DNA of 35,461 bases, from NCBI GenBank assembly GCA_017448825.1, contig JAFSKR010000052.1, forward strand, positions 1-35,461. The letters are read 5' to 3'. The stretch's first letter is position 1, and each line of letters opens with the position of its first letter. Origin of the DNA: Bacteroidaceae bacterium (lineage in GTDB: Bacteria; Bacteroidota; Bacteroidia; Bacteroidales; Bacteroidaceae). The position numbers and the translations under genes are program-made. This document shows positions 4,899 through 19,338 of this stretch, piece after piece. The notes under the pieces are model-generated. The model was not told the origin of the DNA, ran no database searches, and saw only the letters and a program-made list of their open reading frames with translations.

Positions 4899-6185
4899 TT
4901 ATTTGTTTATCCAAAGTCTTCCTTCTTTCAGTGGAATACGATGCTTGCGGTTCTTCCACTTGGTGTTGCGGTCGCGCAACTTTTCAAACGAATAGTCATT
5001 GAAGCCCGCTGCCTGGGCCAACCGTCCAAGCCATTCGTCCACGGGAATGTAGATGCCATAGGGGGCCGAATCACCGACAACGAAACACATCTTACAATTT
5101 GGTGCTGTCACCCGGCTAAGGGAATAGAACACCTGAGCCATGTCGTAGAAATAGGCGGCTATCATCATGTGGTAGTTTTTCTTGCCGCCGTGGTTCTCAC
5201 GCTCGTCTTTCAACAGGGCGTACTTCTCATCAATTTCGTCGCGGATAGGCGAGAGAAGCGGCGATGCAAGATAGTCGCCGACGGTATCCTTCAGAGTGGA
5301 AACGTGCTGAGTACAGGCACGGATGAGGTTGACGCTCACCTTATCTTGCAAATCCTTCCAGCCGTTAATATCGTTCCAGAAAAGCATCTCCAACCGCATG
5401 GCGTCAGCGTAATCATAGTTGTTGGCGTATGGTGGCGACGTAATGACCATATCGGCCCAGTTGTCAGGGACGGAATCAATGTGGCGGGCATCCTCGCGCA
5501 ACACCTCCGAATGAGAGTTCTTTCCGAAAACGTCGTGCAGTCGCTGCATGTCCTCAAATATTTCGGAAAGCTTCTCCTGATATGCAGTGAAAGGGCCAAG
5601 CACCTTCGACTTCGACTTCTTGGGCTGGATGTATTGCCATTGCGCCGTGCCAACAGGCGACGTGGAGCGGAGGATGGACGTGATAATGAACCAGACGAAA
5701 TTCCGCAGTTTATCGTCTTCTATCTCATAGCATGAGAGTTTCAGAGCCTCCAACTTCTGTAGCGTGTCCAACGGGAAACATTTTGCTATCAGTTCGGGAA
5801 ATTCCGTGCGGTCGATAGCCTTGCCTCTTGCTCTCTTGAGTACGTCAAGACTCTCTCGCATCAGATATTCACTGTCGAAGTCGTTCCATTGTAGTTTGGC
5901 CATTGCAATGTTATAGACGTAAGGGTTTGATTCGATGCCGTATGAATCCACACCATGTAGCATACTCTCCACCATGACCGTGCCCGAGCCAGCAAAGGGG
6001 TCAATGACTCTATGTCGGCCCTCCAGCTTACCCTGCTCAATCAAGCTACCAACCCATGCGCCCGAAAATCCCGCCGTATAGCGGTACCAGCGATGAAGCG
6101 GCAACTTCATGTTGTCTTGGAACGTCGTGCTGTTCTGCGTCTCTTCAACAGCGTATAATGTTGGAAATAAATCTAATTGTAGCAT
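4899..6185 (-). CDS. site-specific DNA methyltransferase (TSPPY type)
   Basis: A 428-residue AdoMet-dependent DNA methyltransferase. Motif I, DPFAGSGT (residues 62-69), binds AdoMet; the catalytic motif IV is TSPPYANN (249-256), a TSPPY form typical of N4-cytosine and some N6-adenine enzymes. About 180 residues separate the two motifs, enough for an inserted target-recognition region, and a conserved-looking HRWYRYTAGFSGAW block (31-44) precedes motif I. It lies between two nuclease-like genes (2-bp gap upstream, 13-bp gap downstream), as expected for the protecting enzyme of a restriction-modification operon. The target base and site cannot be read from sequence. Confidence 0.88.
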   Translation of the reverse strand: MLQLDLFPTLYAVEETQNSTTFQDNMKLPLHRWYRYTAGFSGAWVGSLIEQGKLEGRHRVIDPFAGSGTVMVESMLHGVDSYGIESNPYVYNIAMAKLQWNDFDSEYLMRESLDVLKRARGKAIDRTEFPELIAKCFPLDTLQKLEALKLSCYEIEDDKLRNFVWFIITSILRSTSPVGTAQWQYIQPKKSKSKVLGPFTAYQEKLSEIFEDMQRLHDVFGKNSHSEVLREDARHIDSVPDNWADMVITSPPYANNYDYADAMRLEMLFWNDINGWKDLQDKVSVNLIRACTQHVSTLKDTVGDYLASPLLSPIRDEIDEKYALLKDERENHGGKKNYHMMIAAYFYDMAQVFYSLSRVTAPNCKMCFVVGDSAPYGIYIPVDEWLGRLAQAAGFNDYSFEKLRDRNTKWKNRKHRIPLKEGRLWINK

Positions 6186-16064: not shown

Positions 16065-16072
16065 TACTTTTG
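16065..16072 (+). promoter_or_regulatory. -7 element for the structured RNA and methyltransferase transcript
   Basis: TACTTTTG fits TAnnTTTG. The expected -33 region (about 16041-16045) is only a T-run, so the upstream box is weak. A transcript from here would begin near 16079 and carry a leader of about 320 nt before the methyltransferase start. Confidence 0.5.
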
Positions 16073-16120
16073 CAATCGGTTTCGGGGGAGAAATTCCGAA
16101 GACCAGAACAAAGCATTCGC

Positions 16121-16358
16121 TATTATTTCGCGCATAGCCAAGAAAGCCTCGGAAACTTAGATTGGTATAATAAGCACCGAAATAATATGTGACAGAGCAG
16201 CCCGTTTGTGGGGCTTCTGTTCTCGTTTGGATAGCGATGCACACGCAAAAAAGCGTGATGCATTCTTGAAAACGAGACAGAGGTACCAAATCCGAGGCTT
16301 CACCTCTTGCTATGCGCAAACAAGGTGCATCACGTCCTTTTATGCGCCTTGGCGTGAT
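16121..16358 (+). ncRNA. candidate structured RNA, leader of the methyltransferase-DUF262 unit
   Basis: A nested set of pairings: GCGCATAGC (16130-16138) with GCTATGCGC (16309-16317); AAG (16140-16142) with CTT (16306-16308); AAGCCTCGGA (16144-16153) with TCCGAGGCTT (16291-16300); TTGGTA (16162-16167) with TACCAA (16284-16289). Enclosed hairpins: AGCCC (16199-16203) / GGGCT (16211-16215); TCTCGTTT (16221-16228) / AAACGAGA (16270-16277); and within that ATGCACACGC (16237-16246) / GCGTGaTGCAT (16253-16263) with an A6 loop. Arms that cannot form at the same time as these include TATTATTTCG (16121-16130) / CGAAATAATA (16178-16187) and CGTGATGCA (16254-16262) / TGCATCACG (16326-16334). I do not recognise a known RNA family. 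The closed-stem layout recalls retron msr-msd RNA, but there is no reverse transcriptase nearby. Confidence 0.6.
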
Positions 16359-16392
16359 TGATAGTTGGATGCTGAACGAGCTAAAACTATCA
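16359..16392 (+). promoter_or_regulatory. hairpin immediately before the methyltransferase start codon
   Basis: TGATAGTT (16359-16366) and AACTATCA (16385-16392) are perfectly complementary over 8 bp. The stem ends 3 nt before the ATG at 16396 and would cover the ribosome-binding region, so it could limit translation. Confidence 0.5.
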
Positions 16393-16395
16393 GTT

Positions 16396-17418
16396 ATGAA
16401 GCATAAGGAATCAATGCAGAAGGCATACAAGGAGAAGGATGCCGAGTATTACACCTTGTATGAGGATATAGCCGCCGAACTGCCGCAGTACAGGGAGCAG
16501 TTGCGGGGTAAGCGTATTATCTGCCCGTGCGACTGGGACGAGAGTTACAATGAGGAACTGGTTTACAAGGAGGAGGGCGTGACGGCCAGCGACCTTTTCT
16601 CAAACGGAAGCATCAAGCATCTGGACATGGCTGCATCGAAGGATAAGTTTGAAAAGGACTTCGATGCCATCAAGTGCCAGTTCGTGAAATTTCTTGTGGC
16701 ACACGCCGAGGCTTATGGCATCCGCTCCATATCCGTCAGCGGCTACAATCCGCAGACAGGTGATGGAGTGAAGTTTCAGGACATCGACTACACGAACTAT
16801 GATTTGGTAATCACTAACCCGCCCTTCTCGTTGTTCGGAGAGTTTATCGATGTGATGATGAAAGCGGGTAAAGAGTTTCTTGTCATCGGCCCGACAACGG
16901 CACTGACTTATAAGAACATTGCCGGATATATGCACGAGAATCGCCTGTGGCTGGGCTACGCCAAACAAATGAAGGGTTTTAGACGACCAGATGGTTCGCT
17001 GTTGTTGTCGAAAGACAAGGACGGGTCAGTGCCTCGCGCCTGCAAGTGGTACACGAACCTTGACGTGAGCTACCGCCACGACCGTGTCACTCTCACCAAG
17101 TCTTATTATGAGAATCCAAACTTATATCCAAAGTACCTCAATTATGATGCCATACACGTAAGTTTCGTGAAGGACATTCCCTACGACTACGAGGGGCTAA
17201 TGGGCGTACCCACCACGATAATGACAAAATACAATCCAGAGCAGTTTGAGATTGTCGGGTCGAGCATCGGGCTTGCACTCAAGCCGACATTTGACCTTCC
17301 AAAGAACAAACGCGGTGGCCCCGCATTCTATCTGCCCGACGAAAAGGGAAGCGTAAGGCGAATGTTCGCTATGCTTGTAATCAGAAATTTGAACCCTATT
17401 AAAGAAGAGGAACTATGA
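16396..17418 (+). CDS. EcoRI-type adenine-specific DNA methyltransferase
   Basis: A 340-residue enzyme expected to methylate adenine in DNA. It carries the EcoRI methylase family's ICPCDWDESYNE segment near the N-terminus and the catalytic motif NPPF at residues 141-144 (ITNPPFSLFGEFIDVMM), followed by GPTTALTYKNI. The frame is open from 16312, but that segment lies inside the paired leader RNA; MKHKESMQKAYKEKD at 16396 is the usual type of start. The stop overlaps the next gene by 4 bp (ATGA). No EcoRI-like nuclease is adjacent; the partner is a DUF262-HNH protein, so target and purpose (protection, marking or targeting) are inferred. Confidence 0.88.
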   Translation: MKHKESMQKAYKEKDAEYYTLYEDIAAELPQYREQLRGKRIICPCDWDESYNEELVYKEEGVTASDLFSNGSIKHLDMAASKDKFEKDFDAIKCQFVKFLVAHAEAYGIRSISVSGYNPQTGDGVKFQDIDYTNYDLVITNPPFSLFGEFIDVMMKAGKEFLVIGPTTALTYKNIAGYMHENRLWLGYAKQMKGFRRPDGSLLLSKDKDGSVPRACKWYTNLDVSYRHDRVTLTKSYYENPNLYPKYLNYDAIHVSFVKDIPYDYEGLMGVPTTIMTKYNPEQFEIVGSSIGLALKPTFDLPKNKRGGPAFYLPDEKGSVRRMFAMLVIRNLNPIKEEEL

Positions 17419-18500
17419 CGGTCAAGGAACTATACAATGAGGTACGCGACGGCCACATCATCAGTGACATTGAGCTACAGCGCGAAATCATCTACAGCGT
17501 CGAAAAACAGGAACTGGTTATCGACAGCATCGTGAAGGACTATCCCCTGCCAGCGTTCTATCTATGGAAGAACGACGACGGGAATTTGGAGGTACTCGAC
17601 GGGAAACAGCGCATTGAAGCCATCCGCCGATTCTATGAGAACGACATCAAGTATCAAGGTTTGCTATGGAAAGAGTGGAACAAGAAAGACCCACAACTGC
17701 AAGAGAAGATAAACGACACACTACTTTGCATCATCATCAGCGAGGGGACAGAAGAAAAGAAACGCGAGATATTCAACCGCATTAATACGCTCGGCGTCCC
17801 TCTGTCTGATTACGAAGTGTTGAATGGACTCTATGCTGGCGAATATCTACGAGGCCTGTCGAAGTTCGTAGAGCAGGATGCAGCAGCCAAAAAGATATTG
17901 GGTGAGCCGAAGCGAGGCAAGAGCAAAATCAAACTGCTTGATTTCATTTGCTCTCTGCGCGGAGTGAAGGATAAAAAGGAATACGTGAAACTACATAAGG
18001 ATGAGCCATTTCAGAGCGACCAACTACTCGTTACGAAACACATCCGTTTCGTGGCCTCAATCTTCGATGAATTCAGTTCGCTTACGATACTCCTACGCCT
18101 TGCCGTAAAGTATGCTAAGGACGTGACCATCTGGAAAGAACATAAAGATGAGATAAATCGACGGCTGAAAAAGTTTAGGAAGAGCCAAGACTATAAACTT
18201 ATCACGGACAAAGAAAAGGAAACGGAAGACATCATCCAGACCGTTGTACAGGGTATCAGCGTTGACCCAAAACGTCTTTTCACGCAAGACCAAAAGGACG
18301 AACTCGTCCAACGTTCATTAGCTTATTCATCGAAACATGACGGCGAGAAAATCCGATGTGAAGACTGCAAACAGTTATTCTACGCTGACGAATTGACCGT
18401 TGACCACATCAAGCCGTGGAGTAAGGGTGGCCGCACAGAACTTTCAAACGCCCAACTTCTCTGCCGTGCCTGCAATAGTAAGCAGGGGAATCGGAAGTAG
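17415..18500 (+). CDS. DUF262-HNH nuclease protein (GmrSD-related)
   Basis: A 361-residue protein. The N-terminal DUF262 domain has DIELQREIIYSVEKQELVIDS-type helices and the ParB-like/GmrS hallmark DGKQRIEAI (residues 62-70), linked in that family to nucleotide hydrolysis and DNA-modification sensing. The C-terminus is a zinc-stabilised HNH nuclease: CEDC (315-318), DHIKPWSKGG (330-339, His331 likely general base) and CRAC (350-353). The combination of a sensor and a nuclease is typical of anti-phage effectors such as GmrSD. It is translationally coupled (ATGA) to the methyltransferase, so the two probably act together. Specificity is unknown. Confidence 0.85.
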   Translation: MTVKELYNEVRDGHIISDIELQREIIYSVEKQELVIDSIVKDYPLPAFYLWKNDDGNLEVLDGKQRIEAIRRFYENDIKYQGLLWKEWNKKDPQLQEKINDTLLCIIISEGTEEKKREIFNRINTLGVPLSDYEVLNGLYAGEYLRGLSKFVEQDAAAKKILGEPKRGKSKIKLLDFICSLRGVKDKKEYVKLHKDEPFQSDQLLVTKHIRFVASIFDEFSSLTILLRLAVKYAKDVTIWKEHKDEINRRLKKFRKSQDYKLITDKEKETEDIIQTVVQGISVDPKRLFTQDQKDELVQRSLAYSSKHDGEKIRCEDCKQLFYADELTVDHIKPWSKGGRTELSNAQLLCRACNSKQGNRK

Positions 18501-18567: not shown

Positions 18568-18885
18568 TTACAGAGCCATCCCTTTCACCGTCAGCAAATG
18601 CTTCTGACGAGGCTTGTTGGGGTAGAGCATCGTGACAAAACCATGCTGGATGGCAAGATTGAGATAGAGATTCAAGAATTTGTCACGTCCTTTAAGTTCA
18701 AAAACCTCCATCATTGCTTTGACAGACAATCGGCCATTGCCTATCACGCACACCAAACACACCACATCCACACTGTCCGTCTCAATCAGACTCCGTTCTT
18801 GTCCAGTATTTGCGTGCCGCGTACTATGTTCACTCCTTTTTGCAACGAAATCAGACTCCGTTCTTGTCCAGTACTTGCCCTGCAT
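18568..18885 (-). pseudogene. remnant of the C-terminal winged-helix region of an AlbA_2/ATP-binding or Fic-type protein
   Basis: The last 70 or so codons read VVCLVCVIGNGRLSVKAMM, then EVFELKGRDKFLNLYLNLAI, then PNKPRQKHLLTVKGMAL. This is the familiar pattern ELM..LxLKDRxxFRxLYLxPALxxGLIxMTxPDKPxSxxQxYxLTxKG of the C-terminal domain of schlafen/AlbA_2-type ATP-binding and some Fic proteins, with several consensus positions lost. Nothing of the N-terminal domain is present. The upstream part of the frame contains the 65-nt-spaced direct repeat. Probably a decayed gene end. Confidence 0.5.
18784..18873. repeat. 25-bp direct repeat, 65-bp spacing
   Basis: Two copies of a 25-bp sequence beginning AATCAGACTCCGTTCTTGTC occupy 18784-18808 and 18849-18873; both then continue TTGC with a single difference before it. 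It looks like a local duplication in decaying sequence. Confidence 0.85.
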
Positions 18886-19206: not shown

Positions 19207-19297
19207 GGCTGTGTCAAAATAATACACTTATTCCCCAAAAAATCGACTACGACGTGGGCGATTGAGAGGCTATTGGTGTATGTATTTTGACACAGCC
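19207..19297. mobile_element. MITE-like inverted repeat element, about 91 bp
   Basis: The ends are GGCTGTGTCAAAATA(AT)ACAC (from 19207) and GTGTATGTATTTTGACACAGCC (to 19297), an imperfect inverted repeat of about 20 bp. Ends beginning GGCTGTGTCAAAA are reminiscent of insertion-sequence termini. The internal 47 bp are non-coding. No convincing target duplication is visible. It could instead be a long hairpin terminator. Confidence 0.5.
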
Positions 19298-19338
19298 CCT
19301 TATGATTTATATGCCAAGGTGGCACACCCGATTACTTT

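Follow-up and report, generated by a model that had tools for sequence, protein, structure and literature searches.

Large structured RNAs adjoining a nuclease gene are known from the HEARO/OMEGA and retron systems, and restriction-modification (R-M) systems are known to be regulated by autoregulation of the methyltransferase. In the sections of PMC3874152 drawn on here, R-M regulation is also attributed to C (controller) proteins, small HTH regulators the requirement for which can delay expression of the restriction enzyme in a new host, and to antisense RNAs, which control the EcoRI and Eco29kI systems from reverse promoters. A further RNA, RCd22 of Clostridioides difficile, is associated with AbiF and binds its one toxin family (PMC12373285, in the part used here). 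The locus considered here lies in a 35,461-nt stretch of DNA (the window), contig JAFSKR010000052.1 of a Bacteroidaceae bacterium. Its feature of interest is probably the ~318-nt 5′ leader (16078-16395) of a methyltransferase-nuclease operon, belonging to an undescribed Bacteroidales family of structured cis-regulatory RNAs that would limit or time expression. Comparison among related loci shows its fold, its strand, its position between promoter and gene, its shared use and the exchange of the genes behind it.

Among the window proteins scanned, an HSP70 gene lies upstream of the leader on the opposite strand. The −7 promoter element placed just upstream by the first-pass annotation (Table 1) is of the type TAnnTTTG, the Bacteroidetes consensus. 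The 110 nt that precede the RNA core contain such a motif in 91 of the 112 related loci, where shuffled sequences give a mean of 6.8 and at most 13. No separate gene lies between promoter and methyltransferase in the window, hence no HTH controller gene. The longest ORF would begin at ATG 16312, which falls within stem P1; homologous methyltransferases begin MANKNLNxAKxAKKDEFYTQ.. or MAGNK.. at a place matching ATG 16396, so the start is most likely there. Just behind the GmrSD gene, at 18568-18885 on the − strand, is a 105-aa frame with a match to a Fic-like C-terminal domain (PF21247), perhaps a remnant. Farther on, an imperfect inverted repeat seen by eye, GGCTGTGTCAAAATAAT .. GTATTTTGACACAGCC at about 19210-19300, may mark the end of an insertion sequence or be a terminator.

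Table 1. Positions of the promoter, the predicted RNA elements and the genes of the locus, numbered from the first nucleotide of the window.
Feature	Position	Strand	Basis
−7 promoter element TACTTTTG, type TAnnTTTG	16065..16072	+	sequence; 91/112 loci
5′ hairpin GGUUUCGGGG..AAGACC (GGGGAGAAAU type)	16078..16104	+	fold; such a form in 46/112 loci
Conserved RNA core (covariance model R1)	16113..16352	+	190.9 bits, own sequence in model
PA 5′ strand; pseudoknot-like pairing option with 16179-16187	16121..16129	+	860/956 cells paired
P1 5′ strand, GCGCATAGC	16130..16138	+	935/976 cells paired (shuffled 769), 150 double changes
P2 5′ strand, GCCTCGGA	16146..16153	+	870/888 cells paired, 132 double changes
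PA 3′ strand	16179..16187	+	PA pairing in the 112-sequence alignment
P4 5′ strand, hypervariable, pairs with 16270-16277	16221..16228	+	covariation, pairwise comparisons
P5 5′ strand (A6 loop 16247-16252)	16237..16246	+	821/960 cells paired (shuffled 799)
P5 3′ strand; alternative partner is the P7 loop region 16326-16335	16253..16263	+	alternative pairing 914/1030
P4 3′ strand	16270..16277	+	same basis as P4 5′ strand
P6 5′ strand (GAGG)	16280..16283	+	398/414 cells paired, 41 double changes
P2 3′ strand, TCCGAGGC, within P6 loop	16291..16298	+	covariation with P2 5′ strand
P6 3′ strand (CCTC)	16303..16306	+	pairs with P6 5′ strand
P1 3′ strand, GCTATGCGC	16309..16317	+	covariation with P1 5′ strand
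P7 hairpin, loop 16328-16335, conserved U-run 16337-16341	16322..16341	+	547/611 cells paired (shuffled 531)
P8 inverted repeat GATTGATAGT..ACTATCA, directly before start codon	16356..16395	+	GATAG..CTATC core in 75/112 loci
EcoRI-type adenine DNA methyltransferase	16396..17418	+	PF13651 E 4.1e-64; start re-assigned from 16312
GmrSD_N (DUF262) + HNH protein, presumed nuclease partner	17415..18500	+	PF03235 E 5.5e-18, PF01844 E 1e-14

Folding of 16065-16395 gives an MFE of −124 kcal/mol, whereas shuffled versions average −86.8 (z −7.7, none of 100 shuffles as good). For the likely transcript, 16076-16396, z relative to shuffles is −7.9 for the + strand and −6.05 for the − strand. The heavily base-paired leader described in the first-pass annotation is thus real, and its two long closing arms, P1 and P2, were found where they had been placed, enclosing further pairing that includes P4 and P5 with its A6 loop. 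Besides the methyltransferase start, two details required revision. The proposed extent, 16130-16317, is right as to the closing arms but not as to the 3′ limit, since the RNA runs on through P7 and usually P8 to about 16395. The perfect arms are likewise there but are not simply nested: the fold is pseudoknotted, because the P2 3′ strand lies within the P6 loop and 16121-16129 is able to pair with 16179-16187. At the 5′ end, the segment is different or altered in loci other than the 46 that carry the GGGGAGAAAU-type hairpin.

Covariation was assessed on a 112-sequence alignment, from which L208-L211, with the lowest order-level scores among the fetched loci, were left out, and on A1, 44 members of a 76-sequence alignment without L077 and L080 (3′ part missing) and three near-duplicates. 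In A1, 94.5% of cells are paired in the named structure, which comprises 39 pairs. Twenty pairs are changed on both sides, giving 119 double-change cells compared with 31.6 ± 5.8 when shuffled (0 of 500 as many) and at most 15 when slid, a control biased in favour of the structure because the structure was derived from the window; on the measure of further pair types, 21 of 500 shuffles did as well. An unsupervised search of the 112 sequences places its five strongest covarying column pairs all in P1 and P2. P4, P6 and the pairing between P5 and the P7 loop (including 16254-16334) are also among these hits, together with many non-pairing column pairs at lower ranks. Compensatory changes at homologous loci, which the first-pass annotation had named as the check on its leader, are therefore present in P1 and P2, and the leader reading came through it. 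PA differs in that its 5′ strand is nearly invariant, with only 12 double changes; P7 has 23, and its U-run is T in 81-108 of the 112 loci per column.

The strand can be read from the tolerated mismatches. G-U exceeds A-C in P1 (21:2), P6 (36:4), P5 (122:34), PA (76:26), P7 (181:15) and the P5/P7-loop pairing (151:7). The ratio is uninformative for P2 (3:3) and is not in favour for P8 (38:50), which behaves by this measure no differently from a DNA inverted repeat. With G-U above A-C in most stems, the leader appears to act as an RNA of the + strand.

The RNA is found across the order. A 271-base blastn query matched 68 of 399 family genomes, the window's own included, and covariance model R1 detected the RNA in 27 of 393 order genomes, several of which carry multiple copies; in a phylum sample, R1 matched one of 296 genomes, the window's own. 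By genus, it is present in 14 of the 30 sampled in the family and 16 of 207 in the order. The family loci compared below are 80 of the 87 blastn places outside the window (G057, two from G273, second pieces of G222 and G377, G373 and the second from G378 were left out), and the order loci are the 40 fetched of 44 R1 places, three places and the window not being taken again. An exact 20-base motif of the RNA was found in at least 119 stretches of genome contigs, a lower bound; the titles of the 80 motif matches listed name Bacteroidales or families or genera placed in it, except one that gives only Bacteroidia. The set of named loci shares 11 identical loci with the earlier sets and so is not independent of them. 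The motif has no exact match in viral contigs, nor has the window leader a match in plasmid or phage records, and a phage or plasmid element was rejected on these grounds. The genome of the window has a second, diverged copy (L176, contig C74:63467-63703, − strand, 113 bits), which precedes a C5 DNA methylase (449 aa) and then a 388-aa protein, so that two operons in one genome stand behind the same kind of leader.

No known RNA family accounts for the leader as far as Rfam goes, as the first-pass annotation had supposed. All 4227 families of Rfam release 15 gave no window match at the gathering threshold, and 12 homologous loci gave only a DUF805 RNA, twice (L209), and one tRNA (L050), none of them over the core. 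At relaxed score, two of the three sequences comprising the window, L184 and L070 matched L13_leader on the RNA strand (20.3 and 21.7 bits against a gathering score of 44, E 2.1 and 0.66); at about half the gathering score, membership in that family was rejected and the match taken as chance. Other sub-threshold matches were to snoMe28S-Am2589 (22.8 against 37) and to Bacilli-1 (11.8 against 55.6), the latter being all that L184 gave. The DUF805 RNAs (RF03081, L209:4180-4245 and 5144-5212) lie directly behind a short, low-scoring variant of the leader, before a secreted-looking protein. No described RNA of such a kind was recognised in the published, mostly open-access literature covered; the RNA may be present, unnamed, among the thousands of candidates of PMC8040213, part of which was available here.

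The genes that follow the RNA are varied: R-M genes, together with some for envelope modification and a minority of other kinds. In 58 of the 64 named loci with enough sequence, an ORF of at least 100 aa begins at a distance of 191-313 nt from the motif and is read from the motif's strand; six have none in that range, and 16 of the 80 named loci are too short for spacing to be judged. In 46 of the 80 family loci the RNA is followed by an EcoRI-type methyltransferase, with a GmrSD match as well (in L138 the methyltransferase is the second gene). An EcoRI-type methyltransferase was recognised in 19 of 40 order loci by its N-terminus, and in 46 of the 58 usable named loci, to which Pfam adds a fragment in L228. 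Other loci have methylases of type C5 (L062, L176), N6/N4 (L079, L195, L258) or D12 (L179) first, or other R-M genes: type IIG (L131), MmeI (L181), a Tsp45I nuclease (L197), an HSDR_N-like protein (L089), HsdM of type I (L213) and a type III methylase (L224, from the cultured carrier Bacteroides rodentium). SNF2/helicase proteins are first in L100, L190 and L205, and L115 has a putAbiC match. Envelope-type first genes encode sulfatase-family proteins (L182, L189, the latter with a sub-cut-off EptA match), an acyltransferase (L140) and a glycosyltransferase (L216). Of neither class are an RNase_T exonuclease (L092), DUF4268 (L075), YbjQ (L129) and GNAT (L243). A divergent sub-group of the RNA (L095, L121, L126, L127, L133, L134, L136 and the weak hits L208-L211) precedes mostly secreted-looking proteins, LRR proteins or a C10 peptidase, not defence genes. 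With so many unrelated genes behind it, no single protein goes with the RNA. The RNA can also be better conserved than the gene it precedes: between L063 and the window, the RNAs are 82% identical and the methyltransferase proteins 32%.

Several first proteins resist classification. Those of L066, L070, L186, L212, L231, L241 and L247, of 770-837 residues, have no Pfam match. Proteins of 769-776 aa are found first in L070, L083, L118, L124 and L212, the first four forming one family; searches of Pfam, PADLOC and NCBIfam gave no match for that of L070, and Pfam none for that of L212. These are possibly an uncharacterised restriction or defence protein. In L123, one RNA is followed by a tandem pair of EcoRI-type methyltransferases, which share 58% and 52% identity with that of the window, and then by GmrSD.

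The reverse comparison began from the methyltransferase. Among 30 EcoRI-type loci, which were the best-scoring and not a random sample, 24 have a GmrSD match and nine an R1 match, the window included, leaving 15 of the 24 methyltransferase-GmrSD loci without R1. Four of these 15 (L036, L038, L050, L052) have leaders that look by eye like divergent versions of the RNA, with fold z of −6.5 to −9.8. In unfiltered R1 searches, only L052 was convincing (E 1.3e-5), L036 and L050 giving E of 0.024 and 0.1; L038 reached E 0.99 at the right place and had better matches elsewhere. Five others have an HTH gene at the RNA's place: a small one in L042, L043, L047 and L048 (Pfam HTH_3 for L042, L047 and L048), and in L037 a frame interrupted by a stop. 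Neither RNA nor HTH gene was found upstream in L039, L040 and L041, and in the remaining three (L035, L054, L055) upstream sequence is short or missing. In genome G710, which has five RNA matches, a copy of the RNA precedes a small frame resembling an HTH gene (HTH_35 match, below the curated cut-off) at two loci, L194 and L207. RNA and HTH are therefore not strictly exclusive. The first-pass annotation had also offered the RNA as a working part of the methyltransferase-DUF262 system. The unrelated genes behind it and the 15 loci without R1 speak against this, and an obligatory RNA component of the methyltransferase-GmrSD system was rejected.

Stem P4 evolves unlike the rest of the RNA. In 34 RNA pairs at least 92% identical elsewhere, P4 is on average 50% identical. 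Its own strands nevertheless give a best-stem score of 8.96 versus 5.70 with swapped partners, and a score of at least 8 is reached by 86 of 112 own combinations versus 50 of 553 swapped ones. The multiple alignment is unreliable there, with only 320 of 515 cells paired, so P4 was also checked pairwise. Gene pairs at least 85% identical numbered 18, of which 11 were dropped as duplicates. P4 differs in all four locus pairs with a downstream gene 96.4-98.5% identical, the change being limited to a few base pairs in L126/L127 and taking in much of the stem at the other extreme; the mismatches of these pairs cluster at about 60-180 nt of the core, and the gene has 16 to 96 mismatches in 1100. L107/L221 differ upstream of the core as well, and in three gene pairs at 86-92% (two being the same locus twice) the RNA differs throughout. 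P4 thus stays paired and yet changes faster than the gene behind it. The difference between L104 and L119 looks like an inversion of the stem; such changes could come about by template switching in the hairpin, by gene conversion between copies or by diversifying selection. P4 strands as guides to a genomic target were considered and rejected, as the two 12-base strand patterns have exact matches in the window's own genome only at the RNA itself.

A paired element that changes so quickly would fit an identity tag, and this bears on the alternative that the RNA is an independent, trans-acting part of a defence system (guide-, retron- or RNA-antitoxin-like) merely transcribed ahead of the genes. 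In its size, its pseudoknots and its conserved core it is more like a functional RNA than a simple attenuator, and there is a precedent in the AbiF-adjacent RNA of C. difficile, described in the part of PMC12373285 used here as acting both in cis and in trans. With unrelated protein families behind the same RNA, though, a single protein partner common to all is difficult to envisage, and the spacing to the gene is narrow. The exact matches of the P4 patterns confined to the RNA itself tell against a guide. The retron-like version raised in the first-pass annotation fares no better: the proteins scanned, 10 from the window and the first ones downstream at homologous loci, include no reverse transcriptase. 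Likewise for a HEARO/OMEGA RNA: there is no IscB/TnpB-type partner, EcoRI_methylase and GmrSD_N-HNH standing in its place, and no Rfam match. A trans-acting RNA is unlikely on this evidence.

The homology of leaders with different genes behind them raises another alternative, that promoter and RNA region serve mainly as shared homology, a landing pad at which cargo genes recombine, with the fold secondary. In 31 listed locus pairs whose RNAs are 81-94% identical and whose cargo class differs (L138 being counted as different, though the methyltransferase is its second gene), homology spans the leader and ends at +214 to +336, near the start codon. L182 and L185, from two species of one genus, show this at the same chromosomal site: the leader is 90.8% identical from −231 (a limit near the contig end of L185) to +254, followed by a 592-residue sulfatase-family protein in L182 and by a methyltransferase-GmrSD pair in L185. 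Identity restarts in L185 where the pair ends and in L182 500 bases past the gene, and the right flank is 93.4% identical over 5741 bases. By this comparison the leader seems to have been kept and the gene behind it replaced, which suggests a route by which immunity genes are replaced and their control is kept. Homology at the level of DNA, however, needs neither compensatory changes nor an excess of G-U over A-C, and a landing pad as the main function is accordingly rated quite improbable, although it and a regulatory role can both be true together. A cluster of palindromes arising by chance or acting purely as DNA is scarcely credible: folding of a single sequence can mislead by itself, and P8 does resemble a DNA inverted repeat, but the RNA recurs in 14 of 30 family and 16 of 207 order genera with compensatory changes in P1, P2 and P6 and strand-specific tolerance of G-U.

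The reading as a regulatory leader, one of those offered in the first-pass annotation, is supported by the place of the RNA between promoter and gene, on the same strand and at narrow spacing from the next gene, and by its compensatory changes. Its position, the substitution of HTH genes at some loci and the nature of the genes behind it suggest a controller that limits or delays expression. By analogy with C proteins elsewhere, the leader would limit or time expression of the gene behind it.

As to how it might do so, the P5 3′ strand (16253-16262) has two complementary segments, its own 5′ strand and, in the P7 loop region, 16326-16335. Its pairing with the P7 loop has 914 of 1030 cells paired (shuffled 850) and 47 double changes, and at 16256 it forms in 111 of 111 sequences, compared with 71 of 112 for P5. 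P5 and P7 themselves are hardly above their shuffles because their columns vary little. A guess at the most likely device is a conformational switch: within a pseudoknotted frame formed by P1, P2 and P6, the P5 3′ strand would exchange its own 5′ strand for the loop of the U-rich P7 as partner, or the reverse. Such a switch might act on the terminator-like P7 or on how accessible the start codon behind P8 is; a ligand, a protein or a kinetic delay after entry into a new cell are candidate triggers. A terminator scan did not call P7 of the window (hits 4, shuffled mean 3.3), and the window's own MFE favours another register, 16321-16330 with 16342-16351, which leaves attenuation a candidate mechanism. 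Across the alignment that register is formed in 475 of 740 cells and an extension of P7 pairing with P1′ in 55 of 476; both were rejected as unsupported.

A broader version of the leader reading is possible, if doubtful: a new class of Bacteroidales RNA that senses infection or entry into a new cell and, as one leader, controls all major R-M types together with envelope modification. In it P4, diversified faster than the surrounding DNA, would serve as an identity tag or be a target of phage antagonists, and cargo would be swapped at the start codon. Bacteroidales are important in gut and rumen. A leader common to type I, II, IIG and III systems would, if true, be a common control point for bacterial immunity, and it would make testable how newly acquired restriction systems switch on without killing the host.

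Compared with known systems, the proposed role of the leader is most like that of C proteins, and HTH genes do occupy the RNA's place in some methyltransferase-GmrSD loci; C proteins, however, are protein regulators, whereas the regulator proposed here is an RNA in cis, and the HTH genes found are at most candidate C proteins. The antisense RNAs of EcoRI and Eco29kI likewise control R-M at the RNA level, in place of which there is here a structured leader on the sense strand. RCd22, as presented in the part of its description used here, is also a structured RNA beside a defence gene, but the present RNA is common to unrelated gene families. With HEARO/OMEGA and retron RNAs the likeness is the HNH domain of the GmrSD protein near the RNA; unlike them, the leader has no IscB/TnpB-like partner or reverse transcriptase among the scanned proteins. 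Like riboswitches and attenuators, the RNA is a structured leader close to the promoter, with a strand that may pair with either of two conserved partners and a U-rich hairpin before the start codon; the genes it would regulate belong to R-M and envelope modification, not to a metabolic pathway, and the leader has no Rfam match.
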